From IMG/VR virus record IMGVR_UViG_3300032783_000063, positions 1 to 64,000 of that record: a stretch of DNA of 64,000 bases; one strand, given 5' to 3'. Shown in pieces: positions 11,884 to 27,255 of this stretch. Position numbers and translations under genes: made by a program. Positions within the stretch are counted from its first letter, which is position 1, and every line of letters begins with the position of its first letter. A model generated the notes under the pieces. The model saw only the letters and a list, made by a program, of their open reading frames with translations, did no database searches and was not told the origin of the DNA. Origin of the DNA: a virus.

Positions 11884-12543
11884 TCAGATGTCAGGCCAGC
11901 CGGGGGACAGGTCCGCGACGCGTGGTTTGCCGGTCCCGATCCACAGCTCGGCGGCGATGCGCTCTGAGTCCGGCAGCACCGATACGGGCGTGATGTCCAC
12001 TTCCGGCAGCGGCGGCAGGCCCGCGATGTAGTCGCTGCGTGCCCACCAGAAATTGCCGGAGAAATGGTCGCCGGCGTCGATGGTCATGGTGATGTGGCCG
12101 GCGGTCCGGGTCATGCCGGCGGTCAGCCAGTTGCACCCGGCCGCGTCGGCGCCCTCGCCGAGGAGGCGCACGCAGTCCCGCCACCGGCCGACCACGCGGC
12201 TGGTCATGTGCTCCCGCCGGCGCGTCCGGTACTCGTCCGGTGATGCGGCGCCTTTGGTGTGGCAGTACAGCACCGCCGCAGGCTCGGGAGCGTTTATGCA
12301 CCATTGCCGCAGCGCTTCCAGGGTGACCTGCTCGTAGCCTTCGTCCGCAGTCGCGCACCGGTCCCAGCCGGGCAGTGCCTGGCACAGCCACCCTGCGGCG
12401 TCCCGCCGGTTCTGCGGCTGGCCGACCAGGCCGACTGCGGGCATGACCGGGAACTGCGCCGCCAGCAGCGCCGCCGCATGCGCGGCAGCGGGGACCCGCC
12501 AGGTACCGTCCGCCCACAGATGGTAAAAGTGGGCGATGTTCAC
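11884..12543 (-). CDS. Putative glycosyltransferase-like protein
   Basis: 219 residues with a GTG start directly after the stop of the upstream gene. The sequence begins MNIAHFYHLWADGTW and contains AAVLYCHTKGAAS near the middle, followed by WLTAGMTRTAGHITMTIDAGDHFSGNFWW and ADYI-like text. The HTKG element and the later Gly-Asn-Phe-Trp-Trp segment recall the rhamnan-synthesis-F / LPS-biosynthesis type of GT-A-like proteins, which often precede a variable sugar site. Its position at the end of the glycosyltransferase run supports a sugar-transfer role. The family call is tentative. Confidence 0.5.
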   Translation of the reverse strand: MNIAHFYHLWADGTWRVPAAAHAAALLAAQFPVMPAVGLVGQPQNRRDAAGWLCQALPGWDRCATADEGYEQVTLEALRQWCINAPEPAAVLYCHTKGAASPDEYRTRRREHMTSRVVGRWRDCVRLLGEGADAAGCNWLTAGMTRTAGHITMTIDAGDHFSGNFWWARSDYIAGLPPLPEVDITPVSVLPDSERIAAELWIGTGKPRVADLSPGWPDI

Positions 12544-12852
12544 TTACGGGCGCCGGCCGGGCGGACGCCCGGGAGGCGCCTTCACAGCCGGCGGCGTCAC
12601 CGCAGGCTGCGGAGCGGGCGCAGGTACAGGCGGAGGCTCCTGCCGGATCTCCGCAGCCGGCTGCACGGCAGGCCGGACTTCTGCCCGGGCCTCCGGGGCG
12701 GCCTTCACCTCAACGCCCCGGCCGGCGGCGATCAGCGACTCCGCGTGCATATCGTCGAACACGCCCACCTCGCCTGCGGGCGGGTACGTCCGCCACTGGA
12801 CCCCGTCGAAGTAGGCGCCCTCAGTGCCGACGTTCAGCCGGACAGCCTTCAA
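12544..12852 (-). CDS. Small protein with Pro/Ala-rich tail
   Basis: About 102 residues. I choose TTG 12850-12852, preceded by GGGAG, which overlaps the TGA of the upstream gene (TTGA). The first 45 residues are folded-looking (AVRLNVGTEGAYFDGVQW, GEVGVFDDMHAESLIAAG) and resemble small phage proteins placed near capsid or tail genes. The rest is a Pro/Ala/Glu-rich linker ending PPGRPPGRRP. No function is recognised. Confidence 0.55.
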   Translation of the reverse strand: MKAVRLNVGTEGAYFDGVQWRTYPPAGEVGVFDDMHAESLIAAGRGVEVKAAPEARAEVRPAVQPAAEIRQEPPPVPAPAPQPAVTPPAVKAPPGRPPGRRP

Positions 12853-13142
12853 TTTGTGCTCCCATCCCAGGTGGTCAGGCCGGAGGCGACGGTGGCCAGC
12901 GCGACCGGCCGGTCTTTCACGCAGTGCAGGTGCGCCCACCTGCCGTTCATCCGCAGTCCGAGCCGCTGCCCTGGTGCCAGCGGCTCACCGCAGGAACACC
13001 GCGGCGGCTGATGCTGGGACCCGCCCGGCAGCGAGCATGCGGTGCACACCCACCGGCGGCCGCGCCGCACCACAGCATGCCCGGCCTTAACGTCATGCCC
13101 GCACCCGGCCGGCCCGGACTGGCGGGCTTCCCTGGTCGGCAT
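12849..13142 (-). CDS. Small zinc-binding Cys-rich protein
   Basis: 97 residues; ATG immediately follows the TAG of the upstream gene. Two Cys pairs are visible (VCTACSLPGG and CSCGEPL) plus an upstream GCGHDVKAGH and a late HLHC, enough for one or two zinc sites. The middle has GQRLGLRMNGRWAH. Such small treble-clef-like proteins are common in actinophages, but no exact family is recognised. It is translationally coupled on both sides within the glycosyltransferase run. Confidence 0.55.
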   Translation of the reverse strand: MPTREARQSGPAGCGHDVKAGHAVVRRGRRWVCTACSLPGGSQHQPPRCSCGEPLAPGQRLGLRMNGRWAHLHCVKDRPVALATVASGLTTWDGSTN

Positions 13143-14219
13143 CTACAGGAGTTCCCGGTACACGCCGGCCCACCTGTGCCAGTTCGCCTCGATCGTGTGC
13201 GCCCGGGCGACCTCACGGGCCTTCACGCTCATTTCCTCCCGCGCCGCATGGTCATTGGCGAGCTCGCGGAGCCGCCGCCCCCAGTCGCCGGGCCTGCGGA
13301 TCAGGTACCCGGTCACCCCGTCGACCATGACATCCCGGTACGCCTCGCAATCCGACGCCAGCGCCGGAATACCCAGGGCAAAATATTCCAGAAGCTTGAT
13401 GCCGGATTTGCTGGCATCGAACACTGTCCCGGTCAGCGGCGCGAGGCCGATGTCAAAGTCCAGCTGCCGGTAATACGCCAGCGACTCATCCGCCGGCACC
13501 CATTCCGTGAACCGGCACCGGCGGCCGATCTCATCGGAGAAGTCGCAGCCGACTAGATGTAGTTCAGCTTTCGGGTGGCCGTCGATGAACTCCCGCAAAG
13601 GCTCGGTGATCATCTTGATGTCCGGGCCGTGGGAGCCGCCGCCCGCCCAGCCGACCACCAGTTTCTTCCGGTGCCGGTTCCGTTCCAGGGTCAGCAGGCC
13701 GCCGGGGACGCAGTTGGGGAGGACCCGGATCTCCGGGCAGCCCAGTTTCCGGTACACCTCGGCGAGCGGTTCCGTGGATACGGTGACGATGTCGGCGATC
13801 CTGGCCGCATGGGCGACGACGTCCTGCATGACGTTCTGCCGGTAGGTGGCGAGCGTCCACCGTTCCTCCGGCACGGAGAAAATATCGTCGTCGGTTTCGT
13901 AGACGAGCCGGTGCCGCAGCCGCAGGTTCCGCCACGGTCTGAGGGCGGTCTGCTTGTCGAGCCGCTGCGCGGTGATGATCCGGTAGTCGTCGGCGGCCTG
14001 CGGCGGCACCCCCGCCCGCCATTGTGTTTTCCAGCCGTGCCTGCCGAGCTCGGCGAGGGGAACGATCACCCGGTACCAGCCGCAGCCGGACGGGCCTGAG
14101 CTGCCCGGCACCCACCGGACCGTCTCGGAGTCGATGAGCTCGCCGCTGCTGCTGCCTGCGGCCATGTAGGAGGCCACGTAGTCGTGGACGCCCCAGACGC
14201 TCCCGGCCAGGTCGCTCAC
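13143..14219 (-). CDS. GT4-type (GT-B) glycosyltransferase
   Basis: 358 residues with a GTG start and GAAGGAGCC upstream. The C-terminal half is typical of GT-B retaining glycosyltransferases of family 4: KLVVGWAGGGSHG at the start of the nucleotide-sugar domain, HLVGCDF, then SGIKLLEYFALGIPALASD containing the E-x7-E-like donor-binding stretch, and a closing DGVTGYLI. The N-terminal half has RHRLVYETDDDIF and VSTEPLAEVYRKLG. The donor and acceptor sugars cannot be read from the sequence. It sits next to a GT2 gene in a coupled operon inside a phage structural block, so a virion protein is the likely acceptor (inference). Confidence 0.82.
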   Translation of the reverse strand: MSDLAGSVWGVHDYVASYMAAGSSSGELIDSETVRWVPGSSGPSGCGWYRVIVPLAELGRHGWKTQWRAGVPPQAADDYRIITAQRLDKQTALRPWRNLRLRHRLVYETDDDIFSVPEERWTLATYRQNVMQDVVAHAARIADIVTVSTEPLAEVYRKLGCPEIRVLPNCVPGGLLTLERNRHRKKLVVGWAGGGSHGPDIKMITEPLREFIDGHPKAELHLVGCDFSDEIGRRCRFTEWVPADESLAYYRQLDFDIGLAPLTGTVFDASKSGIKLLEYFALGIPALASDCEAYRDVMVDGVTGYLIRRPGDWGRRLRELANDHAAREEMSVKAREVARAHTIEANWHRWAGVYRELL

Positions 14220-14229
14220 GGCGGCTCCT

Positions 14230-14826
14230 TCAGGGCCAGACGTCTATGGTCTCGGCGGGGACGGCGACGAACCCGGCCCGGGCGTTCAGCCATGCGGATA
14301 CCAGTTCCCAGTCCTCCCCCGCAGACGGCGGCCCCCACGTGGCCACGTCGGCGAGGTCGGCCCAGTGGAGGATCATGGGAGTGCCGACCGTCCCGAACGC
14401 GGGCATCTCCCCTCCGATGACCGTCGCCCCGCCGTCCGGGCCGTGGCTGACCATCCTGGACACTGCGAACCGTGCTCCGGGGGCGGCCAGGAGCGCGGCA
14501 GCGAGGACCTGCAGATGGTCCGGCCGGTAGGCGTCGTCGTCGTCCAGGTAGGCGATCAGGCCGCCTTCGGCGACTTCGAGGCCGCGCCGCCGGGCCGGGC
14601 CGCCCCAGTGCTCGGTGGTGTCGTGCTCGTCCAGGCAGGTGAACGTGACCTGATGCCGGGGATTCGATGCTTCCAGGACGGCCTGGCCGAGATCCCAGTC
14701 GGGGCCGTCGGACACGATCACATGCTCCACCGATGGCCAGGTCTGCGCGGCGACCGACGGAATGCACCGTTTCAGCAGCAGGTCATGCCTGTGCCAGGTC
14801 GGCGTGATCACCGAGATCAGCGGCAT
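14230..14826 (-). CDS. GT2 family glycosyltransferase
   Basis: 198 residues; ATG 14824-14826 overlaps the upstream stop as TGATG. It has the classical GT-A start PLISVITPTWHRHDLLLKR, then EHVIVSDGPD and the metal-binding LIAYLDDDDAYRPDHL. The late EDWELVSAWLNA matches the ED catalytic-base region of GT2 enzymes. It is a close paralogue of the gene at 26605-27255: 47 bases are identical between 14513-14559 and 26960-27006. It is also related to the gene at 18819-19478. It is short for GT2, so probably a minimal catalytic domain acting in the cytoplasm on a soluble acceptor. Confidence 0.85.
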   Translation of the reverse strand: MPLISVITPTWHRHDLLLKRCIPSVAAQTWPSVEHVIVSDGPDWDLGQAVLEASNPRHQVTFTCLDEHDTTEHWGGPARRRGLEVAEGGLIAYLDDDDAYRPDHLQVLAAALLAAPGARFAVSRMVSHGPDGGATVIGGEMPAFGTVGTPMILHWADLADVATWGPPSAGEDWELVSAWLNARAGFVAVPAETIDVWP

Positions 14827-15989
14827 CACAGCGGCAGCGCCCCGGCCAGCCGCTGCCTGGCGGCGAGCATGCCCTGATCCCACCGGGGTTTCGACGTGTC
14901 CAGGACCATTTCCAGGTCAGTCCTGCTGACTGTCACCCGCGCAGGCTGCATCGGCGCCGGCGTGCTGGCGGCCAGGACTTTCGCGCAGTCCCGGACCCAC
15001 GCTGCGCCGAGGACGCCGATGCGGGTATCCCGCCACGGCCCGTGTTCCAGGCTCCCGTAAACCATCCCCGCCGCGTCCAGCACCGTCTCCGCGCCGCTGA
15101 GATCGACGTCGTCGAGAGCGGCGGTGAACGGGAGTGTATCCCGCATCCCCCGTGTCTCCGCCGCCAGGTCACGGCTGAGGGTGTGCGTGTTGCGTTCCTG
15201 CCACACCAGCGGCCGACCGTACCGCACCGACCAGCCGAACTCGCGCATCACCCGCTGCGCGACATACGACGCCCAGATGTCGTCGTAGCGGCCCGCGCCG
15301 GGCAGCATCGTCATCACCGGCAGCAGATCCCGGGCGAACGCCGTGTTCTGCGAGTTGAACGGCGCGTAGGTACCCGGGGCGACAGCGAGCCCCGCCGCTG
15401 CGGCGGGGGACACGCCCGTGCACAGCGGCCGGGCGGCGATCCGGGTCACCGCGTCAATGTCCGGGTCGCCGAGCCACAGCCCGGCCGATACCCCAACCCG
15501 GATGCCGCTGCCGTAGCCCACGGCCGGCGCCCTGTCCGGATGCCATAGCTCGTGCGGGAACCCGCGGTGATGCACCGGCGGGATCAGGAAACCGCCCGGG
15601 TCTGCCCACCTGCCGCCCAGCACCAGCCCCGAGAACGACCGCGACAGGTCCTCAGCGAAATCATCGAAATACCTGCGGTCCAGCGGGATATTGTCGTCGT
15701 CGATCATGACGACGATCGAGGCGCCGTGTTTCACCGCCTCGAGCAGGCCGATGGACCTGCGGCCAGTGCACCGCCAGCCCAGCAGCTCCGAGGACTCGTA
15801 TCCGAGCTTATGCTGATCCTCGTCGCTGTAATACACCATGCTGCCGTTGCGCTCGCAGAACGCGCGGATCTCATCGTGAGGGGCCTGCTCGTCGCCGATC
15901 ACATAGAACGGGACGTCCGGGCCGATTTCCCGGTACCAGCCGAGAACTTCGGGAACCTGGATGGTGGTGGTGACCAGCGCGATGCTCAC
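14826..15989 (-). CDS. STELLO/RGP-like GT-A glycosyltransferase
   Basis: 387 residues with a GTG start overlapping the preceding TGA (GTGA). It starts SIALVTTTIQVPEVLGWY and has PFYVIGDEQAPH, YYSDEDQHKLGY and the metal-site-like VMIDDDNIPLDRRY. A later FNSQNTAFARDLLP and GRYDDIWASYVAQRV follow. This arrangement resembles the STELLO / reversibly-glycosylated-protein type of GT-A proteins, which also carry a DDDN-like motif. The exact family is tentative, but a nucleotide-sugar-dependent enzyme is likely. It belongs to the coupled glycosyltransferase operon. Confidence 0.65.
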   Translation of the reverse strand: MSIALVTTTIQVPEVLGWYREIGPDVPFYVIGDEQAPHDEIRAFCERNGSMVYYSDEDQHKLGYESSELLGWRCTGRRSIGLLEAVKHGASIVVMIDDDNIPLDRRYFDDFAEDLSRSFSGLVLGGRWADPGGFLIPPVHHRGFPHELWHPDRAPAVGYGSGIRVGVSAGLWLGDPDIDAVTRIAARPLCTGVSPAAAAGLAVAPGTYAPFNSQNTAFARDLLPVMTMLPGAGRYDDIWASYVAQRVMREFGWSVRYGRPLVWQERNTHTLSRDLAAETRGMRDTLPFTAALDDVDLSGAETVLDAAGMVYGSLEHGPWRDTRIGVLGAAWVRDCAKVLAASTPAPMQPARVTVSRTDLEMVLDTSKPRWDQGMLAARQRLAGALPL

Positions 15990-16684
15990 CGCAGCGCCGC
16001 CAGCCGGGCGGCGTCCTCAGCCCGCCACGTGGTGTAAGGCTCACTGTAGAATTCGGCGCAGCGGATCCCGCCGCGGCCTTCCCGGTAGGTGTCGTCGCCG
16101 TTGCGGCCGGTCAGGTCGAACCGGTCCTGATACACGTAGATACCAGGCCTGGTGATCACGCCCGCGGCGAGGCCGACGTCCTGGAACCAGGTGTCCACTG
16201 CGGGAAGCGGGCACAGCCGGCCGAGCACGGCAAGGACGTCCGCGTGGACGACGGGAAAACAGGTGAGGCCGGGAATGTTGCCGTCCGTCCAGATGATCGT
16301 CCCGGCGGGCTGGGCGCGGACGATGTCGTCCCAGCCTTCTGTCTGCATGATCGCGTCGTCGTTCCATGGTGTCATGGTCCATTCGCCGTCCGCGAGCCCG
16401 AGCAGCGCAGCATGGTAGCGGGCACTTTCCGCATATCCGAACCGGTACGGGGCCTGCCAGATTGCGTCCGCAGACGCAGCAGCGGCAGCCCTGGCTGTTT
16501 CCGGGTCGTCCGGGTCGCAGGCCACCAGGATGTCCAGGAGGTCAGGGCGGGCGGCGCGGTCCCGCAGCGACGTGATTGATTCGGTGAGCATGGCGGCCCG
16601 GCGGCGGGACGGGACGGTAACTGAGATAACCCCCGGCCTGTGTTCCGCTGCTGGCCGGAGTGCCAGCGGGATCATCTCAGTCAC
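15986..16684 (-). CDS. GT2-like glycosyltransferase
   Basis: About 232 residues. GTG 16682-16684 overlaps the end of the upstream gene by 8 bases; ATG 16673-16675 is an alternative. Features seen: VISVTVPSRRRAAMLTE at the start, LDILVACDPDDPET, then WTMTPWNDDAIMQTEGWDD, which takes the place of the usual DDD metal motif (here NDDA). A closing block around WFQDVGLAAGVI could supply the base. This looks like a diverged GT-A fold. Its place between a GT17-like and a STELLO-like gene supports sugar transfer. Confidence 0.6.
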   Translation of the reverse strand: MTEMIPLALRPAAEHRPGVISVTVPSRRRAAMLTESITSLRDRAARPDLLDILVACDPDDPETARAAAAASADAIWQAPYRFGYAESARYHAALLGLADGEWTMTPWNDDAIMQTEGWDDIVRAQPAGTIIWTDGNIPGLTCFPVVHADVLAVLGRLCPLPAVDTWFQDVGLAAGVITRPGIYVYQDRFDLTGRNGDDTYREGRGGIRCAEFYSEPYTTWRAEDAARLAALR

Positions 16685-17450
16685 GGGGCCGGAACCATCC
16701 TGGCGGGCAGCGCCGCTCGAACACCCACTGCGGCCACGTCTCATCCACGTCCACCGGGGTCAGCCAGGGGGACGGCTGACCGTACCTCTCGCCGAAACAG
16801 TTCTGTCCCGCCCGGTACAGGTCGTTCGCGAGCGCGTTCTCGACCAGCGGGTTCCCGTCGGTATGACAGTGCGCGGCCATTTTCGTCCTGACGGCCGCCT
16901 CTCCCCCGAGCCAGGTCAGATGCTTCCCGGCCTTTGCGATCACCGACGGGCTGGCCTGCCCACGCTCCCGGGCCGTCCAGAACGATCCGATCATCCCGGC
17001 GGGGAAAACCGGGGATGTGCGCAGTGATTCCTTCCACAGCCAGTCAACGGAGAACATGCAGGTGTCCATCTCCATCACCGCCGGGCCACCTGCTGTGAGG
17101 GCGGTGATCGTGGCGGGTGACGGTATCTCGTCGGCGTCCGCGAGAATAACCAGATCATCACCGGCGGCGGCGGCCAGCCCGGCGGCTATCTGGTCTCGCT
17201 GGGCGTGTTCCCGGTCCCACGGGTTCGCGGTGTCCGGCAGATCCTCCGCCACCACATGAATGATCTTGCCGAGCCATGGGCTGAACCGGTCCTGGTTCTC
17301 CGCGAACATCAGCGGTTTCGGGTGGCCCTGATGGTCGGTGCGTGCCTCGACGAGGACATGCCGGTACACCGGCGACTCGTCGAGCTCGGTGAGACGGCAT
17401 TCGAGGATGTCCAGCTCGTCGCGGAACAGGAACGTGTCGAAGATCCTCAC
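16677..17450 (-). CDS. GT17-like glycosyltransferase
   Basis: 257 residues. GTG 17448-17450 overlaps the upstream TGA (GTGA). The start VRIFDTFLFRDELDILECRL matches the entry of family GT17 (beta-1,4-N-acetylglucosaminyltransferase III type), where a D-x-F-x-x-x-E-L-D-x-L-E pattern is conserved. RDQIAAGL and the DLVILADADEIPSP metal motif (DADE) follow, then VFPAGMIGSFWTARERG and GWHC-like text. GT17 members are known in bacteria, including some phages and prophages, but are uncommon. Donor and acceptor are unknown; a soluble enzyme modifying virion proteins is inferred from context. Confidence 0.75.
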   Translation of the reverse strand: MRIFDTFLFRDELDILECRLTELDESPVYRHVLVEARTDHQGHPKPLMFAENQDRFSPWLGKIIHVVAEDLPDTANPWDREHAQRDQIAAGLAAAAGDDLVILADADEIPSPATITALTAGGPAVMEMDTCMFSVDWLWKESLRTSPVFPAGMIGSFWTARERGQASPSVIAKAGKHLTWLGGEAAVRTKMAAHCHTDGNPLVENALANDLYRAGQNCFGERYGQPSPWLTPVDVDETWPQWVFERRCPPGWFRPRD

Positions 17451-18130
17451 CGGGGCAGGCTGTCCCGGAGCCGGGCCAGGTCTGCGGGCCACCGCTGGCA
17501 CAGGAACTCGTCATAGGTTCTGCGGTCAGTCCCGGCGGCTTCGAGGGCCAGCATCCGCGCATACCCGTCATCCGCTGCGGCTTTCCCCGCTGACGGATGC
17601 AGGTGCTCGATGAGCACGTCCGGGCGGTACTGCAGGTTCCCGATGTCAGTCCCCAGTTGTTTCCAGAAGGCGTCGACATACAGGTGGGTCAGTCCCGGCG
17701 GGCACATGTAGCCGAGCCTGCGGACCAGCGCGGCAGACATGACCACAGCGGTCGGGAGTTCCTCCCCCCGCAGGCCGTCGTCGCCGTAGGCAACCCCCGG
17801 CCGGGTGATGAGCGCGTCCGTCAAGGTCTTGTCCCATCCGGGCGTGCGGGGCCGGTGGTCGTCGCCGAGGAACCCGACCGCCGGGAACACGGCGGCAAGG
17901 CCAGGGGCGACCATGTTGAGGACCGGCCCCGGCCCGCGCGGCCCGCTGATGACCGCTACCTGTGCCATCTGCCACCGGGACAGCCGGGCATAGCCGTCTG
18001 CGTGCGGGTCGTCAGCGTCGGCGACTACCAGGAGCATGGCGGCGGCTGTGACCTGCGGCCACAGCCTGATGAGCTCGGCGGCGCTGTGCGGCCTGCCGCG
18101 TGATGGGCAGATCATCACCAGTTGGGTCAA
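17447..18130 (-). CDS. GT2-like glycosyltransferase
   Basis: 227 residues with a TTG start in a TTGA overlap with the previous gene. It starts VMICPSRGRPHSAAELI and has MLLVVADADDPHADGY and a metal-site-like FLGDDHRPRTPGWD. It then has GVAYGDDGLRGEELPTAVVM and a DAFWKQLG helix. This is the pattern of short GT-A proteins found in phage genomes. No substrate can be named. Confidence 0.65.
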   Translation of the reverse strand: MTQLVMICPSRGRPHSAAELIRLWPQVTAAAMLLVVADADDPHADGYARLSRWQMAQVAVISGPRGPGPVLNMVAPGLAAVFPAVGFLGDDHRPRTPGWDKTLTDALITRPGVAYGDDGLRGEELPTAVVMSAALVRRLGYMCPPGLTHLYVDAFWKQLGTDIGNLQYRPDVLIEHLHPSAGKAAADDGYARMLALEAAGTDRRTYDEFLCQRWPADLARLRDSLPR

Positions 18131-18819
18131 GGCTTGACTCCGGTGAACATGCCCCGGTCTCCGGGGTGCCCGGAGTAGGCGTAGGAGCCCGTGGTGATGT
18201 CATCAAGGTAGTCGAACTGCCGGAAGACCAGCGGGAACCCGGCGCATCGGATCGCATCGCACAGGTCTGGGATAGCCAGCCAGAACGATCGCTGGTTCCC
18301 CCATGATCCCCACCGGCTGTCTGCGGCCGGATCGTCCTGATACCAGTGTCCGCGGCGGCCCTCGTTCTCCGTGCCGGGGCGGTCGGAGTAGTGGGTCTGG
18401 AGGATCAGCAGCCTGCGGGTGATCTTGCCGAGCATGTTCAGGAACGCTACCGGCCCGTCCAGGTGGTAGAGGAGGCCGCAGCAGAACACGGCGTCGAATC
18501 CGCCGTGCCGGTGCAGGTTCCGGGCGTCGTCCCGGACGAACCGCAGGTTCGGCAGATCCAGCGCTTCGGCGATCCGCTGGCAGTTGGCCATGTTGACGGC
18601 CCGGACCTCGACGCCGACTACGTCGTATCCGGCGCGGGCGAACTCGGCCGCATAGCCGCCTTCGAGGCAGCCGACGTCGGCGATCCTGCCGCCGCCGGGG
18701 AGCGCCAGTTTCAGGTCCCGCAGAGCGGCCTGGCAGATTCCCGTGTCTGCGGTCAGCGGCACGCCCGGAAGCGTCTCCGACCCGTCCGGCAGCCGGATGT
18801 TGTGCGCGGTGAATGCCAT
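18127..18819 (-). CDS. Class I SAM-dependent methyltransferase
   Basis: 230 residues; the ATG overlaps the upstream stop (TGATG). The Rossmann SAM motif is IADVGCLEGGYAAEFARAG, followed by VVGVEVRAVNMANC (acidic residue after strand 2), FVRDDARNL, and the post-motif FDAVFCCGLLYHLDGP. This is the layout of Methyltransf_23/11 small-molecule or sugar methyltransferases. Flanked by GT2 genes, it may methylate a sugar hydroxyl or terminal residue of the glycan built by the neighbours (inference). The C-terminal third (GHWYQDDPAADSRWGSWG) could form the acceptor pocket. Confidence 0.78.
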   Translation of the reverse strand: MAFTAHNIRLPDGSETLPGVPLTADTGICQAALRDLKLALPGGGRIADVGCLEGGYAAEFARAGYDVVGVEVRAVNMANCQRIAEALDLPNLRFVRDDARNLHRHGGFDAVFCCGLLYHLDGPVAFLNMLGKITRRLLILQTHYSDRPGTENEGRRGHWYQDDPAADSRWGSWGNQRSFWLAIPDLCDAIRCAGFPLVFRQFDYLDDITTGSYAYSGHPGDRGMFTGVKP

Positions 18820-19478
18820 CAGAAACGTACTTCGCGGGTTATAGGTGGCGATGGGTATTTACAGTCTCGGTAGTAGTAATCTGCGGTAATTTGCGGGTCG
18901 CATGCCCATGTCACCCCGGCTTTCATCCAGCGCTCTACCAGATCCCAGTCATCGGCAGGCACCCCTGTCTGCCACGTCGCTACGTCCAGGATTTCGCGGC
19001 GGTGCAGGATCGCGGACGTGTCGATCCCCCCGAACATCGGCGGATCGGAGCCGACGATCACTGACCGGTGCGCGTGATGCATCTCGATCCGCGAATACGC
19101 GAACCCGGCTTCCGGGTGGTCCCGCAGTAGCCTGGCGAGGCGGTGCAGGTGAGCGGGCCGGAACGTATTGTCGTCGTCCAGCCACGCAACTAAGCTGCCC
19201 GTGGCGAGCTGGACGCCGCGGAGCTTGGCCCGGTACCCCCAGCGGATGGCCGGGTCATGGCTGGCGAGCTCGCCGAGGACCAGGGACACCCTGCGGCCGG
19301 GCCGCCCGGATCTGATCATCGCGGCGGCGAGGCCCGGGTCGGGGCCGTCGGACACGATCACATGCTCGATCTCGCCGGGATAGGTCTGGTTCCGGACCGA
19401 TGGCATGCACGTGGTAGTCAGTTCCGCGTGCCTCTGCCACGTCGGCGTGATCACCGAGATGAGAGGCCAGCCGCCCAT
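18819..19478 (-). CDS. GT2 family glycosyltransferase
   Basis: 219 residues; ATG 19476-19478 overlaps the preceding TGA (TGATG). It carries PLISVITPTWQRHAELT, IEHVIVSDGPDPGLA, LVAWLDDDNTFRPAHL (DDD metal site) and ADDWDLVERWMKAG. It is related to the GT2 genes at 14230 and 26605, the three sharing order and spacing of motifs. A cytoplasmic transferase is expected, as no membrane segment is seen. It is part of the run placed directly after the giant beta-helix fibre. Confidence 0.85.
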   Translation of the reverse strand: MGGWPLISVITPTWQRHAELTTTCMPSVRNQTYPGEIEHVIVSDGPDPGLAAAMIRSGRPGRRVSLVLGELASHDPAIRWGYRAKLRGVQLATGSLVAWLDDDNTFRPAHLHRLARLLRDHPEAGFAYSRIEMHHAHRSVIVGSDPPMFGGIDTSAILHRREILDVATWQTGVPADDWDLVERWMKAGVTWACDPQITADYYYRDCKYPSPPITREVRF

Positions 19479-19789
19479 CAGGCGGGGCTGCTGTCGAAAA
19501 TGTATGCGGCGGCCGGGTGTGCCTTGCAGTCTTCGCACCACGGCGTGGCGGCGGCCGGGACTGGTCTGCGGCCACGGTGATCCTCGGCGGGGTGGCACGG
19601 GTTGAGCCGGTGCTCAGGGTGGATCTCCGTAGTCATATGGGAGTGCCAGACGACGGCCCCGGCGTGGTGCAGCACATCACCGGTAACAGGATTGATGACA
19701 GGCTCGGTGGTGATGCAGTCAATCACTTGACAGTTGTCGTGGCCATGACGGCAGGGACCGCCAGGCTGGATGCGCTGGATGAAGGCCAT
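19478..19789 (-). CDS. Small Cys/His-rich protein
   Basis: 103 residues, starting at ATG 19787-19789 in a TGATG overlap with the fibre gene and ending in another TGATG overlap with a GT2 gene. Many Cys and His residues are visible (CRHGHDNC, VIDCITTEPV, VLHHAGAVVWHSH, WCEDCKAH), suggesting zinc binding. The tight coupling between fibre and glycosyltransferase suggests a role with one of them, but no family is recognised. Confidence 0.6.
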   Translation of the reverse strand: MAFIQRIQPGGPCRHGHDNCQVIDCITTEPVINPVTGDVLHHAGAVVWHSHMTTEIHPEHRLNPCHPAEDHRGRRPVPAAATPWCEDCKAHPAAAYIFDSSPA

Positions 19790-22700
19790 CAGGTGATCCC
19801 GTACATGACTGCCTGGCAGTAAGCACCTGTCGATACCAGCGCCGGGGGGCTGAGCAGAGGATGACCTCCGGTGGTTACCGTCAGACCGCCCGTGGCGTAT
19901 GTGACCGGGCTGGAGATTGTGTAACTGGTGTTGGCGACGGCATTGGTGATGGTGGTCCTGGGCGGGATGACCTGGACGCCGACGAGAAGGGTGTCGGTGC
20001 CGGCGCTGTTCCCGGCCGGGTTCTGGGAGAGCGTGTAGCCGGTGCCTGCCTGGACGGCGATGATGATGGTCCCTGCCGTGATGTTCCCGGGCGTGGTGGC
20101 ATCGGTGACGACCGCGCCGACGTCGGCGGCAACGGCGGATGGAACCCCGGTTACCGTGGCAGTGCTCGTGCTGAACGTGCATGCGGGGCAGCTGCGGGCC
20201 GGGTTGGGGCCGCATGGACCAATCAGCAGGTTCTGGGCAGCGCTGGCCTGGCCGGTGGCCTGCGCAGGGGAGGTCGTGAAGGTAGACGGCGACCCGGGAG
20301 TGACAGTATCTATCACTGTGCCCGGGGTGAAATTCGCCGGGGTTGTCTTGTTGAAGACTGTCGCGCCGACGTCAGTTGCCAGAACGGCAGCGTCGGTTAT
20401 CGCGCCGGTGGATGGTACGGTGCAACTGGTGTCACTGCGGGCTGTCGCGGCGATGATGCCCCGTCCGATATTGGCAACTGCCGCGCTGGGACACAGGATG
20501 ATGTTCTGGCTGGGCGACGCCTGGGCCGTGCAGCCGAGGCTGCCGGATCCGTTAGCGCACCAGACGAGCCCGGTCATGATGTTGTTCCCGCCAGAGAACG
20601 CGGAGACGGAAATAGTCTGGTTGTCGAATGATATGGCCAGCCAGTCGGCCAGCTGCGGTATGCAGCTCGCCCCGAGAGGTATTACCGGCTGACCCGCTGC
20701 CGGGCACGGTATATTACCGCTGGTCGCGTTGAGGTACATGCCGCCGTTCGGCTTGGCGTTCAGACCTGACCCGCTGTTCTTGTAATAGGCAACAGAGATA
20801 TTCCCGTAGGAAACGGCCACTGACTCGATGACGATATTAGCGGAACTGTACCCGGCTGACTTGAGCCGCGTGTAGGCCGCCGCCATGAAGCTGATAGGCG
20901 ACGCGGAAGTCCAGGACATGACTGAGCTGAAATTAGAATTGAACCCGTTCTGCAGCGGGTCGTTGGCGCTGGCGTAGCCGCTGGACGGGCCGACCTGAGC
21001 CCATGCGGATGTGCCACCGCCCGTCCCGGCCGTGGTGCAGATCCAGATGAGCCCGGTCTGGTCAATGACGAAATCGCCGGCCAGGTACGTTCCCGACCGG
21101 GGGGCGCCGCCCGCCGTCGCTCCCGCATACCGGCTGGCTGCGGTAGCCCCCGGCAGCCCTGCCGGAGCGTAGTCAGGGAGACTCTGGCCTGCCTGCGCCC
21201 AGGTGGCAAGAGTTCCGGTCCCGCCCGTGGTGCAGATCCAGATGAACCCGGTCTGGTCAATGACGAAATCGCCGGCCAGGTAGGTTCCCGACGTCGGCTT
21301 GCCGCTGACAGTCGCGCCGACAAAGCGGCTCCCGGCACCGGCCCCCGTTATCATGCTCCCGCCGCTGGCCGCGACAAGGCCAGCGGCAGCGAACGCCTGC
21401 GCGCTTGCGACCTCCTGGAAATTAGGCCCGGTTCCGCAGTTGATGATGGTGGTCTGCTGCAGCGGCACGTTGAGCAGCGGCTGCAGCCCCCAGTTGCCGA
21501 CCGTGTCGAGCAGCAGGCCCGTGGTACTGCTGTCTGCGTAGACGTGGAAGTAGACGCCGGCGCCGAGATTGTGCGTAAGCTGACCGGATTGCCGGACTAT
21601 TATGTTGCGGCAGGGAGTGCCAGCTGTACTTTTGGTGAACTGGAATGCGTTTCCCGTCCACGAGCTGGCGTCCCAGCCGCGGACGTGCTCTATGGTAACA
21701 CTGAATCCGGCTGCTATGTTGATCAGCCCTGCGGGGGCCAGCTCAACGACGATGTTCCGGAATAGCATATCCTGTGCGTATCCGGCTGCATTCTGCATGT
21801 CAAAGTTAAAGAATGGCACAAAGTTATTGTTGCCAAAATATCCGGTGTCCAGATCTTGCCAGGAGCAGGATGTGACGCCTACCTGCAGTGAGTTCCAGGC
21901 GGAATTAGTGGCCAGCGCGGAGCCGTAAATACGGCATTCGCCGTACACCACGAGATCAATAGCGGTGCCGCCGAATTCCGACCAGACGCTGTGTGCCGGA
22001 TTATCCTGCTGAGCCTGGACGCCGCAGATGCGGAACTTGGACAGCCCGACGTTGCCGCCCAGGGTGAAGGTGGCAGTGCCTGCGGCGCTGTCGGTGGCAG
22101 GCTTGCTCAGCACGTATCCGGGGCCGGCGTCTCCGGGTGTTATGTAAGAAGAGATAACCGTGGACGCCTGTATGTTAGTTCCGCTGATCGGGGCGCCGAC
22201 GTCGGTGGAGACCGCCGACGGGTCATATACAGTGGCTGAGCCGTTACTGGTCGTGCAGCCGGTATCGGCGCGCCGTGTGATATCCCATACGTGACCGGTA
22301 ACCGGTGCGATCGTGACTGATCCGCCGTTGATGCTGCCGGCTCCGGTGATGCTGAGCATGGGGGCCTGCCCTGGCGCAGGCGCATATGCCTGATTGTTGA
22401 AAAGCACCAGGTAAGCAGTCCCGGCCGGGACGGGAAACGTGTACGGGCCGCCGGCCACTCCCGTCAGCGTGGCAGTGCCTGTTGCTGTCGTCGGAGACGG
22501 GTAGCCGACAGATGCGGTGAAGGAAACACTTGCGCTTGACGCCGCCTGCGCAGACGACAGGGATACTGTTCCGGTGCCTGACGGCGAGACGGCCCCCGTA
22601 ACACCCTTCCCCGAAGCATACAGGAAACAATGCTCAAAAGTAATGTCGTGAGTGTTCTTGTACATGGTGAAGAGACTCGACACGGAATTTATGATCGAGC

Positions 22701-23355
22701 CGCCGGCGCCGCTGCTGCTGTTCGGCCCGTCGATGTTCGAGCCGCGGACATGCATGCCGCTGTACATGGAGATCGGAGTCGACGTCCTGAAGCCTCTGTT
22801 GCCGAGATCCACGATGCCGGACGCAGCCTGTGCGGCGGCGAAGCACGCGTGGACAGGAACGTCGTCATCAGTAACGCCGTCGCCGGCGGCACCGAACGAC
22901 ATCGGGCTGAAGATGCCCTGGGTGGCGTTGACGGCAAGCGGAACACCGGTGAACGCCCCGGCGGAAACGACCTGGCGGACGGTGAACCCTGCGGCGTGAG
23001 CGACAGGAACAGACGCCAAAGCGCCGCGGATCACCGTCCACGTCACGCCGGATACGTCCGTGACCGCAACCATCTCGGAAGACAGCACCGGATCCCCGGC
23101 ATAGAACGGGTTCCCTGCAGACGGGACCGGGAACCCGTCCGACGATGCGACAGTCCACGTCTCGGTGCTGCCTGGCGCAGGCGCGCCGGTGCCTCCGGCG
23201 GTCACCGTGGTCGTGGCGAGCAGATTCCCGGCGGTGATCTTCTTGGTGGTCCCGGACCCGGCCATGGAGAAGTCGCTGGTGTCGACCACCGGGAACAGGT
23301 CACCGGGCTGCAGGCTGGACCCGGCCAGCGCCCCGTATTCGCTGATCTTGCCCAT
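19789..23355 (-). CDS. Giant fibre/beta-helix protein
   Basis: 1188 residues with ATG preceded by TAGGAG. Residues 1-48 (MGKISEYGALAGS, GDLFPVVDTSD, TTKKITAGNLL) match the anchoring module of the two other fibres. A beta-helix follows from about residue 130 (FGAAGDGVTDDDVPVHACFAAA, a pectate-lyase-3 type entry). Two similar 65-70 residue units lie near residues 690-790 (GTYLAGDFVIDQTG twice). Degenerate S-x-V-T-D-x-G-A repeats fill the C-terminal 250 residues. It starts the post-capsid fibre/glycosylation block. The three-domain layout fits a long tail or head fibre; location on the virion is not visible. Confidence 0.7.
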   Translation of the reverse strand: MGKISEYGALAGSSLQPGDLFPVVDTSDFSMAGSGTTKKITAGNLLATTTVTAGGTGAPAPGSTETWTVASSDGFPVPSAGNPFYAGDPVLSSEMVAVTDVSGVTWTVIRGALASVPVAHAAGFTVRQVVSAGAFTGVPLAVNATQGIFSPMSFGAAGDGVTDDDVPVHACFAAAQAASGIVDLGNRGFRTSTPISMYSGMHVRGSNIDGPNSSSGAGGSIINSVSSLFTMYKNTHDITFEHCFLYASGKGVTGAVSPSGTGTVSLSSAQAASSASVSFTASVGYPSPTTATGTATLTGVAGGPYTFPVPAGTAYLVLFNNQAYAPAPGQAPMLSITGAGSINGGSVTIAPVTGHVWDITRRADTGCTTSNGSATVYDPSAVSTDVGAPISGTNIQASTVISSYITPGDAGPGYVLSKPATDSAAGTATFTLGGNVGLSKFRICGVQAQQDNPAHSVWSEFGGTAIDLVVYGECRIYGSALATNSAWNSLQVGVTSCSWQDLDTGYFGNNNFVPFFNFDMQNAAGYAQDMLFRNIVVELAPAGLINIAAGFSVTIEHVRGWDASSWTGNAFQFTKSTAGTPCRNIIVRQSGQLTHNLGAGVYFHVYADSSTTGLLLDTVGNWGLQPLLNVPLQQTTIINCGTGPNFQEVASAQAFAAAGLVAASGGSMITGAGAGSRFVGATVSGKPTSGTYLAGDFVIDQTGFIWICTTGGTGTLATWAQAGQSLPDYAPAGLPGATAASRYAGATAGGAPRSGTYLAGDFVIDQTGLIWICTTAGTGGGTSAWAQVGPSSGYASANDPLQNGFNSNFSSVMSWTSASPISFMAAAYTRLKSAGYSSANIVIESVAVSYGNISVAYYKNSGSGLNAKPNGGMYLNATSGNIPCPAAGQPVIPLGASCIPQLADWLAISFDNQTISVSAFSGGNNIMTGLVWCANGSGSLGCTAQASPSQNIILCPSAAVANIGRGIIAATARSDTSCTVPSTGAITDAAVLATDVGATVFNKTTPANFTPGTVIDTVTPGSPSTFTTSPAQATGQASAAQNLLIGPCGPNPARSCPACTFSTSTATVTGVPSAVAADVGAVVTDATTPGNITAGTIIIAVQAGTGYTLSQNPAGNSAGTDTLLVGVQVIPPRTTITNAVANTSYTISSPVTYATGGLTVTTGGHPLLSPPALVSTGAYCQAVMYGIT
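21031..21292 (-). repeat. 67-bp direct repeat inside the fibre gene
   Basis: The segments 21031-21097 and 21226-21292 are near-identical, differing at about two positions. They encode the two GTYLAGDFVIDQTG units of the fibre, so this is a recent internal duplication within coding sequence and a possible site of unit gain or loss. Confidence 0.85.
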
Positions 23356-23364: not shown

Positions 23365-23928
23365 CTAACGCCCTGCTGCCGCCCTGGCAGCGGCAGCGGC
23401 GTAGATCCCCATGCTGCCGATAATCTTGTCCGGCTCGCCAAGGATCTCGTCCAGCGCCGGGGCAACCTCACGGCAGCAACAGCGTTCCTCCCTGTCGTGA
23501 CAGGCCAGGGTGCCGCCTGCGGCGAGGAGCGGCAGGGCAAGGTTCACGTCAGCCCCGACCTGCGTCCCGGCGTGGTCGCCGTCGATGAAGATAAACCCGA
23601 ACCGGGTCCCGGCTGCAGCCATCCCCGGTAGAACATCCTGGCTGGCATGGCGGAGGATGGTCACCTTACCTGCCGCCCCGGCGAGGAGCAGGTTAGCGGT
23701 CATCACCGGCAGCGAGTCCAGCCAATCATGCGGATCCACTGCGGTGACCGACCGGGCACCCCCGAGAGCCATCACGATCGCCGAGTACCCGAACGCTGAG
23801 CCGATCTCCAGGACATCCTGGTCTTTCGCCATCCGGGCAAGCGCGGCGGCTTCTTCCGGGAGGACCGAGGTCGGGATGGTCTGCGGATGCAGGCCGCCGA
23901 CCGGCTGTTCCTGCCACGCCAGATGCAT
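23365..23928 (-). CDS. Class I SAM methyltransferase (Methyltransf_24-like)
   Basis: 187 residues; ATG 23926-23928 is two bases after the upstream stop. It has motif I VLEIGSAFGYSAIVMA, motif II SVTAVDPHDW, and the FGFIFIDGDHAG segment that marks the methyltransferase-24 / TylF-like group, where the Asp-His pair sits near the metal or SAM. A CCCR cluster follows at about residue 150. It lies between the Gly/Pro-rich capsid-associated genes and the large fibre. A sugar or small-molecule O-methyltransferase acting with the glycosyltransferases is plausible; a peptide substrate is also possible. Confidence 0.75.
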   Translation of the reverse strand: MHLAWQEQPVGGLHPQTIPTSVLPEEAAALARMAKDQDVLEIGSAFGYSAIVMALGGARSVTAVDPHDWLDSLPVMTANLLLAGAAGKVTILRHASQDVLPGMAAAGTRFGFIFIDGDHAGTQVGADVNLALPLLAAGGTLACHDREERCCCREVAPALDEILGEPDKIIGSMGIYAAAAARAAAGR

Positions 23929-23930
23929 GC

Positions 23931-24293
23931 TTACCCGGCGGCGGGGGTTTTCGTCCAGGTGAACCGGGACGGCCCCGAACTCCCCGCACCCGGGTTCCCG
24001 GCGCCCTGCAGGCCGCCGGGCTGAATGCCCTGCGTCCACCCGCCCGAGGGCGCGGCGGGCCCGGCGGCGGGGCTCTTGCCGCCGTCTTTCCCTATCAGGG
24101 TGGACACCGGCGCCGGGGCGCCTGGCGGCAGGACCGGCAGCGGCAAGACCTCCGGGCCCGCGCCAGGATCACCCGGCGACGGGCTCGAGATCGGCACCGA
24201 CCCGGACCCGGACTGGCCGAGATCGCCGTGGACCTCGCCGCCCGCGCTCATCGAGGACGGGACCAGCGGCGGGGCGGTCAGGTGCTGCACCAT
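23931..24293 (-). CDS. Gly/Pro-rich small protein
   Basis: 120 residues, low complexity, rich in Gly, Pro and Ser (SGSGSVPISSPSPGDPGAG, VLPLPVLPPGAPAPVS). It ends RFTWTKTPAAG. It is coupled to both neighbours and is one of three such genes directly after the major capsid protein. It may be a virion decoration or linker. No fold or motif is recognised. Confidence 0.5.
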   Translation of the reverse strand: MVQHLTAPPLVPSSMSAGGEVHGDLGQSGSGSVPISSPSPGDPGAGPEVLPLPVLPPGAPAPVSTLIGKDGGKSPAAGPAAPSGGWTQGIQPGGLQGAGNPGAGSSGPSRFTWTKTPAAG

Positions 24294-24499: not shown

Positions 24500-25024
24500 C
24501 TACCGCTGTCCTTTCTTCCAGCCGCCGACCATGATGTTCCCCTGCCCCGCCCCGTCAGAAGTGGGGTAGAACCCGCCCTCGACGAGGGGCCGCGCCGGCG
24601 GGTACGTCCCCGCCGGGGCGGTCGAGTCCGGGCCGACCACCGCGGACACGACATAGTTGCCGGTGCCGCCGCCGGGCTTGCCGTACACGGCGTTCGGGTC
24701 GGTGACCTGGATGGTCATGCCGGGCTGCTGGATCTGCCCGGCCGGCGCCCCGCCGGACCCGGGCGCGCCCGTGCCGCCCAGCGGCGTCCCGGCCAGCGTG
24801 TCATTAGCCGGGTAAATTCCCGGCGGAGCCGTCGGGTCAGACGCCTCCCCGGCGACTGACGGCGAACCGCCCGCGCCAGTCGAGTAGGAAAGCGGGATGC
24901 CGAACGCCGACGCCGGGTCCTGGCCGGGCGCCAGCGTCGAGTCATTCGGGTTCGCGGGGACACCTGGCGCGGGGGCGAAGCCGTCCCCGGATTCGTCCGG
25001 GCCCCTGTACTTCAGGTCAGCCAT
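24500..25024 (-). CDS. Gly/Pro-rich capsid-associated protein with internal repeat
   Basis: About 174 residues; I take ATG 25022-25024 because GAGGAGC precedes it, though GTG at 25025-25027 is possible. It starts MADLKYRGPDESGDGF. Two similar units occur: DPTAPPGIYPANDTLAG (about residues 64-80) and DSTAPAGTYPPARPLVEG (about residues 133-150), sharing D-x-T-A-P-x-G-x-Y-P. The rest is Gly/Pro/Ala-rich linker. It is the first gene after the capsid gene and follows a strong hairpin at 25056-25095. A decoration or stabilising protein is a reasonable guess only. Confidence 0.55.
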   Translation of the reverse strand: MADLKYRGPDESGDGFAPAPGVPANPNDSTLAPGQDPASAFGIPLSYSTGAGGSPSVAGEASDPTAPPGIYPANDTLAGTPLGGTGAPGSGGAPAGQIQQPGMTIQVTDPNAVYGKPGGGTGNYVVSAVVGPDSTAPAGTYPPARPLVEGGFYPTSDGAGQGNIMVGGWKKGQR

Positions 25025-25055
25025 CACAGCTCCTCGCTGCCGGTTTCCGTTGGAC

Positions 25056-25095
25056 CGCGCCGGGCCGGGCGTTCACAGTCGCCCGGCCCGGCGCG
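25056..25095 (-). terminator. Perfect 16-bp hairpin after the capsid gene
   Basis: The arms 25056-25071 and 25080-25095 are perfectly complementary (CGCGCCGGGCCGGGCG), with an 8-base loop at 25072-25079. It lies 54 bases past the stop of the major capsid gene and before the next gene. There is no clear T-run, so it may act as an attenuator or mRNA 3' stabiliser, giving more capsid than downstream product. Confidence 0.75.
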
Positions 25096-25148
25096 CACCT
25101 TGACTGCAGGTGGCGGCAGCCAAGGAAGATACAGGCGTACAGGAAGGA

Positions 25149-26420
25149 TCAGGTACTTCCTCCCACGTAGTACTTCATGCAGTTGCCGGTCCGATCGACC
25201 AGGGTGCCGTCGCCCCTGATCACGGCCCGGAACGTCACCAGGTCAGTGTTGAACTGGTAATCATCGGACCGCTCGAACCGGACTGGGCCGACCAGCCGCA
25301 CGAAGAACTGGGCGAAGTCGCCGAACACCACCGACTTCGCTGACGTCGCCACCGCCGGCATGAACGGGTCCGCGACCAGCGGCTTGCCCAGCAGCAGGTC
25401 CGGGGACCCGAGGACCACCGACGGCTCCCAGATCGGCCGCAGGTTCGCGTCGAGCAGCAGCCGGAACCCGGCGATCGTCTTGTCCGCCGCCAGCCAGTAG
25501 CAGCTGCGGGACTGACGGTAAGGAGCGATAACGCTGTACTCCAGGTTCACCAGGTCCGAGTACTGCGGGGCGCCGGTCTTGCCGGTTGTGGTGCCGAGGA
25601 CACCCTGGCCTGCGTTCTTGAGCAGCCCGTCCGGCTTGGTGGTGCCCGTGCCGGTGATCAGGTCCGAGCCGAAAGCGTTCCCGATCGCCCGCCCCGACGA
25701 CATGGCCAGGTAGCCGACCAGGTCAACACCCGAGTCGTCGAGAAGCTCGCGGGCCACGGACAGGAGCACGCCGTACTTGTAGGCGCCGAGCGTGACGACG
25801 TCGAACTGCGGGTCAACCTCGTTGATGGAGCCGATCTGCCCAGTCAGCGCCGCCGTGGTGTGCGACGTGGTGCGGGGCACGGTCAGGTTCTCACCGCCGG
25901 CAGTGTTCAGGATCGTCGGCCCGGCCTGCAGCAGCCCCGACACCTCGATCAGGTGGCTTATGAGCTGGTCGTAGAAGTCCGTCGGGGTCAGCGCCCCGCC
26001 GGACGCAGCCGAGTAGGTCATCAGGGCCCGGTAGTTCACCGGCCCCCGGGCCGGGTCGTGGCGCAGTTCCAGCACCCGCGGCGATCCGGCGTCGCCGCGG
26101 AACCAGGCCCGGATCTCGCCGTCCGACCCGCCGCCGGGACTGGTTTCCGGCTGCCGCCACGCCGACTGCCGTTTCTTGTCGACGTCCTTGCCGACAATCG
26201 AGTTGAACGCCGCATCCGCGTCCTTCGACCGCTTCTCCGCCTCGAGGACGGCCTTGATGCGCTTGTCCAGGTTGTCGAGTTCCTCGTTCGCCGCGTCCCA
26301 GGAACCCTGCTCCTCGGCGGTCAGCGCCCGGTTCTCTTCCGTTGCCCGGTCGGCGATGGCTTTTGCCTGCTCCCAGACGTTCAGCCTGCGGTCACGCAGG
26401 GTCTTGGCCACTTCGGACAT
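25149..26420 (-). CDS. HK97-type major capsid protein
   Basis: 423 residues. It forms the icosahedral shell. The first about 95 residues are a charged coiled coil (MSEVAKTLRDRRLNVWEQAK, ELDNLDKRIKAVLEAEKRSK), the delta/scaffold domain removed by the prohead protease in this family. The rest has the HK97-fold signature order: LLQAGPTILNTAGG, a VPRTT stretch, FDVVTLGAYKYGVLLSVARELLDDS, VDLVGYLAMSSGRAIG, a NLEYSVIAPYRQS E-loop/P-domain region, and the end FRAVIRGDGTLVD. The protease gene lies upstream, separated only by a glycosyltransferase gene. Length and order fit the family well. Confidence 0.92.
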   Translation of the reverse strand: MSEVAKTLRDRRLNVWEQAKAIADRATEENRALTAEEQGSWDAANEELDNLDKRIKAVLEAEKRSKDADAAFNSIVGKDVDKKRQSAWRQPETSPGGGSDGEIRAWFRGDAGSPRVLELRHDPARGPVNYRALMTYSAASGGALTPTDFYDQLISHLIEVSGLLQAGPTILNTAGGENLTVPRTTSHTTAALTGQIGSINEVDPQFDVVTLGAYKYGVLLSVARELLDDSGVDLVGYLAMSSGRAIGNAFGSDLITGTGTTKPDGLLKNAGQGVLGTTTGKTGAPQYSDLVNLEYSVIAPYRQSRSCYWLAADKTIAGFRLLLDANLRPIWEPSVVLGSPDLLLGKPLVADPFMPAVATSAKSVVFGDFAQFFVRLVGPVRFERSDDYQFNTDLVTFRAVIRGDGTLVDRTGNCMKYYVGGST

Positions 26421-26604
26421 GTGACAGTTCTCCGTTTCAGTAGCGAGGTGTCCGAAACGGCGATCCAGCGCGGCCCTGTGTTGTGTCCCGGTGCCTGCCT
26501 CGCGGCCGGGAGTCCGTGCCAGTGATGCGTCCGTGTCACGCCTGTCCAGGTGGTGTCGAGCCGGCCTGGAGGCGCCGTGCGCGGGGTTGTGCTTGTTCTT
26601 CCGC

Positions 26605-27255
26605 TTACATGCGGGAAGCTGCGTGCGGTACAGGACGGTGCGGCGGGAAGCACGCCGGCGTGCCCGTCAGCGGCACCGACGGGTAGTAGTCACAGGTCAC
26701 CGCGTCCACCGACGCGCACGTGATGCCGGCGTCCAGCCACCGGGAAACCAGATCCCAGTCATCGGCGCGGATCAGGCTCCGCCACGACGCCACGTCGAGG
26801 AGCTCACGGCGGTGCAGCAGCATGCACGACAGCACGCGGCCGTGCGCCAGCGGCCCGTCGCCGATCCGCAGCACGCTGTCCCCGGCGCACTTGATGACTG
26901 CCCGCGAGTACGCGAACCCCGCAGCCGGGTCAGACTCCAGAGCATCAGCCAGCAGCCGGAGATGGTCCGGCCGGTAGGCGTCGTCGTCGTCCAGGTAGGC
27001 GATCAGATTCCCGCGGGCGAGAGTGAGAGCGTGGTTGCGGGCATCCGCCCCGCCCGGCCCCGTAGTGACCGTCTCGCCGTACACGACCGGCAGCCCGGCG
27101 ACCAGGGCCTGCAGTTCCGGGTCCGGGTCGGAGACGACAACATGCTCAACGTCGGGATACGTCTGCGCCCGCACCGACGGGACACAGCGGCCCAGCAGCA
27201 GGTCGTGCCTGTGCCAGGTGGGCGTGATGACGGAGATCAGCCCTCGTCGGCCCAC
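26605..27255 (-). CDS. GT2 family glycosyltransferase between protease and capsid genes
   Basis: 216 residues. GTG 27253-27255 has GAGGA upstream and overlaps the protease gene by 19 bases. It carries LISVITPTWHRHDLLLGR, EHVVVSDPDPE, LIAYLDDDDAYRPDHL and ADDWDLVSRWLDAG. It is closest to the GT2 gene at 14230, sharing 47 identical bases. A GT gene directly between protease and capsid is notable: the capsid or its neighbours may be its acceptor (inference). The last about 20 residues (PACFPPHRPVPHA) are an unstructured tail. Confidence 0.85.
   Translation of the reverse strand: MGRRGLISVITPTWHRHDLLLGRCVPSVRAQTYPDVEHVVVSDPDPELQALVAGLPVVYGETVTTGPGGADARNHALTLARGNLIAYLDDDDAYRPDHLRLLADALESDPAAGFAYSRAVIKCAGDSVLRIGDGPLAHGRVLSCMLLHRRELLDVASWRSLIRADDWDLVSRWLDAGITCASVDAVTCDYYPSVPLTGTPACFPPHRPVPHAASRM

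Follow-up and report, generated by a model that had tools for sequence, protein, structure and literature searches.

The window analysed here is the first 64 kb (64,000 nucleotides) of the 101,305-bp virus record IMGVR_UViG_3300032783_000063 from IMG/VR (G000), and its subject is a block of sugar-transfer and methyltransferase genes that runs from 19598 to 11884 within the head-and-tail operon of an uncultivated soil phage, probably an actinophage. The block, like every feature of the operon given below, lies on the minus strand. An earlier note had named nine sugar-transfer and two methyltransferase genes in this operon, and all eleven open reading frames (ORFs) are present at the coordinates given in the following paragraphs. 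Several of the genes are chained, as had been claimed, by short start/stop overlaps, with an ATG at -1 (18819 to 18127), a TTG at -4 (18127 to 17447) and GTG starts at -4 (17447 to 16677, 15986 to 14826, and 14826 to 14230). The structural flanks are likewise borne out, with portal, protease, and HK97-type capsid genes upstream and fibre-like and head-tail adaptor genes downstream. In order of transcription, the operon leads from a probable terminase through the portal, the prohead protease, and a GT2 glycosyltransferase (GT) to the major capsid protein, followed by three short Ser/Thr/Pro/Gly-rich proteins, a methyltransferase, a fibre-like protein of 1188 amino acids (aa), and the enzyme block. 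Past the block come a 253-aa protein, a 1125-aa repeat protein, two fibre-like proteins, a 606-aa protein, and the head-tail adaptor. The record has a 127-bp terminal direct repeat, which makes a complete genome probable, with the operon continuing at the other end of the record through a tail-tube paralogue, a pectate-lyase-like protein, the tail terminator, a further GT, the tail tube, the tape measure, a weakly Dit-like protein, and an endolysin.

Between the protease and the fibre/head-tail genes, the GT complement comprises three GT2 enzymes, one GT4, one GT17, two of an actinophage GT-A type, and one weakly GT-like protein, with motifs intact in the GTs (DxD or DDD, plus ED/DDW in the GT2 enzymes) apart from the protein at 11884, which has no DxD. 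Counting Pfam matches above the curated cut-offs, six of the nine genes claimed as GTs pass (26605, 18819, 14230, 13143, 16677, and 14826). The GT2 enzymes are encoded at 26605..27255, between the protease and capsid genes (PF00535, 3e-18; DDDD and DDW motifs), at 18819..19598 (PF00535, 3.9e-11; LDDDN and DDW motifs), and at 14230..14883 (PF00535, 1.3e-13). The last of these belongs to a core set, together with the GT4-type enzyme at 13143..14219 (PF13692, 4.9e-10; phrog_7162, 2.1e-45) and the GT-A type enzyme at 17447..18130 (phrog_14945, 9.5e-41), whose family has 63 of its 69 isolate-phage matches in Streptomyces phages. A probable GT at 15986..16744 is a divergent member of this 17447 family, with no library match and weak fold matches in the PDB, while the GT17 enzyme at 16677..17501 (PF04724, 2.2e-26; DADE motif) found no match by tblastn against 50,697 phage records. 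The count of nine sugar-transfer genes stands for most of them, by Pfam, phrog_14945, or family membership, and needs qualifying at two. One is the protein at 14826, probably a donor-making mutase; the other is the putative GT-like protein at 11884..12543, only a probable GT. It lacks both a library match and a DxD motif, and its AlphaFold model, of moderate confidence (pLDDT 74), is similar to nucleotidyl/sugar-transferase folds (E 5e-5, TM ~0.5). Megablast of the enzyme cluster against isolated phages gave no match.

The protein at 14826..15989 belongs to family GT75 (RGP/GT75 in Pfam, 1.3e-10), and its nearest solved relatives are the MtdL structures (E 3e-27). MtdL is a GT75 enzyme that interconverts the pyranose and furanose forms of GDP-L-fucose/galactose, in which Arg159 is the catalytic, sugar-accepting residue, Asp260 the base, and His287 a metal ligand (PMC9937993). 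The phage protein keeps 11 of the 12 named MtdL residues (DDD, Arg159, Asp195, Ser228, Gln229, Arg257, Asp260, Arg289, and His292), the twelfth, His287, being replaced by Gln (Gln264); at position 228 it has the wild-type Ser, the MtdL sequence in the alignment bearing the S228A mutation. MtdL and Hyg20 are GT75 mutases that act on nucleoside diphosphate (NDP)-pyranoses in actinobacterial antibiotic pathways, from which the phage protein differs in the Gln and in being encoded within a phage structural operon. It is more probably a donor-making NDP-sugar mutase, converting an NDP-pyranose to an NDP-furanose, than a transferase, and because it is closest to MtdL and keeps the key residues, the block probably makes a furanosyl donor besides transferring sugars. 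Among the isolated phage genomes searched, a GT75 mutase and a GT17 enzyme are rare or have not been seen, and they would offer new means of making furanosyl and branched sugars. Elsewhere, GT75 homologues of other phages (L084-L093) are nearly always followed, at about 1 kb, by an epimerase/dehydratase, and in one of them (L088, 10-15 kb) a C5 DNA methyltransferase and a DUF669 protein lie nearby, a grouping that is possibly a DNA or other sugar-modification cassette. The 453-aa protein beside the GT75 homologue of L088 was considered as a dioxygenase and set aside, having no recognised dioxygenase match.

How far this arrangement is conserved was read from relatives. The capsid query gave 80 loci at 61-74% identity in IMG/VR contigs, of which 24, from soil, were read with their flanks and 14 were extended, near-duplicates included (such as G006/G007, L043/L047, and L058/L067). 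Every relative read carries at least two GT genes by profiles derived from the window. All GTs found by profile share the strand of the capsid gene at 25 of 25 loci, most of them following that gene at a distance of 2-20 kb; in contigs that include the adaptor, the relatives' GT genes mostly fall between capsid and adaptor. In whole-record searches of large related records (97-210 kb), GT2 and PF13524-type genes likewise follow the capsid gene and stand among the virion genes or close to them, the one exception, a weak one, being in G003. A core recurs, often in the order 17447-type GT, GT2, and 13143-type GT4, with the 17447/15986 family at 21 of 25 loci, the GT2 family at 21, and the 13143-type GT4 at 20. 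Proteins of the 11884 type occur inside GT blocks at 8 of the 25, and GT17 and GT75 members, among these loci, in the window phage alone.

Around the core, the enzyme set varies. Methyltransferases of the 18127 type are among the variable members; in G013 and L063, as here, they are flanked by GT genes. Found only in relatives, and not in the window phage, are an NDP-sugar epimerase/dehydratase (15 loci), a sugar C-methyltransferase (12), and a cupin (11); the deoxysugar C-methyltransferase is of the PF08421 plus PF08484 type, and the relatives' blocks also hold methyltransferases, including O-methyltransferases, of the FkbM and TylF types (the latter at 5e-97). An additional GT2-like family of 208-240 aa, present at 11 loci, was considered as a methyltransferase and rejected, since it is GT2-like and matches gp108 of mycobacteriophage Che8. 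In G008, G010, G011, and G014 (e.g. L109 16895-18055), the GT/fibre interval also contains a glycoside hydrolase family 5 gene, encoded on the other strand.

Both methyltransferases of the window were confirmed by Pfam, as an S-adenosylmethionine-dependent class I enzyme at 18127..18819 (PF13649, 1.6e-11) and a class I enzyme of the Methyltransf_24 type at 23365..24039 (PF13578, 2.1e-16). In other phages, phrog_2675 joins the two kinds of enzyme in one protein, its N-terminal part matching the GT at 17447 and its C-terminal part the methyltransferase at 23365, which hints that the two may act in one pathway.

A second GT site lies outside the window in the same operon, where a GT gene (PF13524, 2.9e-12) at record position 96361-97110 stands between the tail terminator and the tail tube. 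The order terminator, GT, tail tube is kept in this phage, G001, G003, and G013, a GT follows the terminator in G006 and G011, and in the relative L113 a 17447-type GT and a GT17 are inserted among tail genes. The 34-kb phage-plasmid of Streptomyces sp. NBC_01335 serves as a control. Homologues of the terminase, portal, protease, capsid (46.5%), adaptor, and tail terminator genes follow one another there in the same order, and it contains neither GT site nor a recognisable Ser/Thr/Pro/Gly-rich protein. Because the gene order is kept there without GTs, the GT module is an addition to the morphogenetic plan, not a requirement of it.

Among characterised phages, Che8, Corndog, and Myrna offer the closest parallel. 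Virion glycosylation of these mycobacteriophages was reportedly described by Freeman et al. in 2023, involving gp108-110 of Che8 and gp38 of Corndog. Che8 gp108 is a fusion, whose GT2 half matches the GT2-like family of the 11 relatives (hidden Markov model, 1e-27; 23-29% identity) and whose methyltransferase half matches the relatives' TylF-type methyltransferase (1e-15). Since these matches belong to the relatives and the window GTs match Che8 GTs only marginally, the lineage is linked to Che8 by parts, not by a conserved cluster. Che8 has small phage-encoded GTs in a row in common with it, as well as the GT2 and TylF-type components homologous to those of the relatives. However, Che8 has only three GTs, at the far right genome end (56-58.7 kb of 59.5 kb), whereas this phage has eight to ten enzymes inside the virion operon, GT75 and GT17 members among them, and its relatives a deoxysugar pathway. 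Further counterparts are Streptomyces phages of the Zuko/KimJongPhill and MeganTheeKilla/Samisti12 kinds, with a homologous GT4 (34% identity) before the terminase-portal-capsid genes and a homologous 17447-type GT (~40%). These phages combine GTs with UDP-glucose dehydrogenase, methyltransferase, or nucleotidyltransferase genes, but have few GTs, at other positions, and we know of no demonstration of what their GTs do. In Che8, Corndog, and Myrna, glycosylation of capsid and tail tube proteins is reported (PMC12363180; PMC12619734).

Taken together, we consider it likely that the cluster is a phage-encoded virion glycosylation module. In favour stand its operon position and the coupled start and stop codons of GT, methyltransferase, and GT75 genes, the conserved place and strand of the GT block in about two dozen relatives, the further GT kept between terminator and tail tube, the sugar-specific co-genes of relatives, and the parts homologous to Che8 gp108. 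The module is most likely an unusually large, variable version of the particle glycosylation reported from a few mycobacteriophages, and the best reading of its product is a methyl- and perhaps furanose-containing glycan that varies between phages. The enzymes would be active in the cytoplasm late in infection, where the GT75 enzyme would supply the furanose form of a host NDP-hexose, the GTs would assemble a short, branched glycan attached to virion proteins at Ser/Thr-type sites (the capsid or the Ser/Thr/Pro/Gly-rich protein that follows it, the tail tube, or the fibres), and the methyltransferases would cap the sugars. The surface glycan would then differ between relatives, and is probably variable because their enzyme sets differ, which is what a role in hiding the particle or tuning its attachment would predict.

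The earlier note had proposed a dedicated glycan-building line that coats the capsid and/or the fibres. The line itself gains from the evidence above, while capsid and fibres are plausible targets, no better as acceptor candidates than the tail tube and the Ser/Thr/Pro/Gly-rich protein encoded next to the capsid. The HK97-type major capsid protein (PF05065, 1.2e-53) is encoded at 25149..26420, and directly after it comes the probably disordered Ser/Thr/Pro/Gly-rich protein at 24500..25027. In 24 of 24 relatives a homologous or analogous protein follows the capsid gene, and the motifs PTNEPGQYP and TGAPG(T/S) recur; further short proteins of this composition lie at 24293 and 23931. The fibre candidates are the 1188-aa protein at 19789..23355, for which Pfam and PHROG searches gave no match, a fibre-like protein at 5863..7659 (tail fibre PHROGs, 3.8e-9), and a fibre or spike with a pectate-lyase-like domain at 2776..5760 (PF12708, 1.6e-18). 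By sequence comparison, all three have an N-terminal segment in common, roughly K-I-[ST]-[EQ]...D-x-[LF]-P-[IV]-V-D-x-S-D, suggesting that they use one common attachment point.

Several observations weigh against virion glycosylation. The sequence singles out no acceptor protein, and the capsid alignment contains no Ser/Thr-rich insertion or tail specific to GT-bearing phages, the C-termini being alike. The window phage is without the sugar-biosynthesis genes of its relatives and must therefore rely on host NDP-sugars. The resemblance of its GTs to those of Che8 is slight, the GT status of the 11884 protein is weakly supported, and a metal ligand of MtdL is replaced in the GT75 protein. In addition, GT75 homologues of unrelated phages have a C5 DNA methyltransferase gene and genes of recombination type nearby, and a C5 cytosine methyltransferase gene is present in this phage as well, at 73.5 kb of G000.

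A narrower form of the same idea holds that only the large fibre or spike proteins of the interval are glycosylated, and not the capsid or tail tube. Fibre genes do flank the block here, large fibre-like ORFs lie in the same interval of many relatives, and the NBC_01335 interval, without GTs, is also without fibre genes. Yet several relatives also keep a GT between the terminator and the tail tube, and a GT2 gene stands between the protease and capsid genes, in relative G013 as in this phage, so that we regard a restriction to fibres as unlikely. The last two points of the preceding paragraph also bear on a second alternative, in which the GTs hypermodify the phage DNA, a base glycosylated stepwise blocking restriction and DNA methyltransferases supplying the base precursor. 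To it belong, besides the C5 enzyme, an N4/N6 DNA methyltransferase at 32481, the epimerase and DNA genes that also surround GT75 homologues of other phages, and the precedent of virus-encoded GTs that glycosylate phage DNA (cited in PMC12619734). This is improbable, however, as the GT genes lie in the virion operon and by the tail tube gene, not among DNA genes, the relatives' methyltransferases are of the sugar C- and O-types, and a search of nine records, with a working control, found no thymidylate synthase/dCMP-hydroxymethylase homologue; the Tet_JBP dioxygenase family (PF12851) had no match in the records searched, a negative whose sensitivity the positive control did not confirm.

The gtr clusters of temperate phages modify host surface glycans with phage-borne GTs, commonly of the GT2 and GT4 families also present here. 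That the enzymes likewise act on the host surface, in seroconversion or superinfection exclusion, accords with the plasmid- or temperate-like features of this phage (ParB, a TraG-like ATPase, and GntR regulators) but is very improbable given the embedding in the virion operon, the GT beside the tail tube gene in several relatives, the absence of any Pfam match to a flippase, GtrA, or GtrC-like family within the block, and the lack of a convincing membrane segment, the maximum 19-residue hydropathy being 1.86 in one window enzyme and at most 1.68 in the rest, so that these enzymes look soluble and a reading of them as membrane GTs is not supported.

Returning to glycosylation of the virion, a bolder extension can be advanced tentatively, which we hold to be possible but short of probable. 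A whole lineage of soil actinophages may possess, within the morphogenetic operon, a hypervariable 'virion glycan locus' with one GT site behind the capsid gene and another next to that of the tail tube. It would build lineage-specific glycans of C- and O-methylated deoxysugars, joined in this phage by a furanose from the GT75 mutase, as a particle-surface equivalent of O-antigen variation. To our knowledge, virion glycosylation has been demonstrated for only a few phages. If the extension is true, phage particles outside animals also bear diverse glycan coats, which raises the question of whether these serve hiding or binding in soil.

Indirect signs point to a host among the Actinomycetota, namely the capsid of the Streptomyces phage-plasmid, the GT relatives from Streptomyces, Arthrobacter, and Actinoplanes, and the DUF2637/TraG-like gene set. 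The host is inferred only, because a scan of GTDB with the capsid profile gave just one short, irrelevant match.

The remaining genes complete the operon. The probable terminase, at 34719, is named from its operon position and the homology of the corresponding gene in the NBC_01335 phage-plasmid. The portal protein, at the start of the virion operon (28233..30872; PF04860, 1.1e-52), has an intein carrying a LAGLIDADG domain (PF14528, 3.9e-11; PF14890), and the prohead protease lies at 27237..28214 (PF04586, 2.4e-26). Past the enzyme block, the 253-aa protein at 11097..11858 (phrog_23653, 3.1e-17) is kept after the GT block in G012 and L036, and the 1125-aa protein at 7656..11033 contains about 30 degenerate D.AAAAD.L repeats rich in Ala and Asp. 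The 606-aa protein, at 954, lies between the fibre/spike gene and the head-tail adaptor (11..1012; phrog_442, 5e-23), which bounds the variable interval on its far side. The opposite end of the record encodes the longer tail-tube paralogue (G000:99892-100536), the pectate-lyase-like protein (97884), the tail terminator (97464), the tail tube (G000:95920-96267), the tape measure (91352), a weakly Dit-like protein (88782), and the endolysin (84952). The two tail-tube paralogues are 60% identical across 107 residues, and the longer one has a C-terminal extension of three D.AAAAD.L repeats like those of the 1125-aa protein, with a homology signal modestly above composition (39.3 bits against a shuffled maximum of 34.7).

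Three further observations concern other genes. A TnpB/Cas12f-like protein (PF07282) is encoded at 46581-48137 of the window; G009 has a related copy (L045 12733-14442), placed between its capsid and GT genes. The phage genome contains a plasmid-like set of a TraG/TraD-like coupling ATPase, a DUF2637-type helix-turn-helix protein, and ParB (window 52482-54185 and 62259-62909; L002 4733-5581). Finally, an enoyl-CoA hydratase-like protein is encoded in the tail/lysis region, at G000:86532-87095 (phrog_1128, 5e-10).

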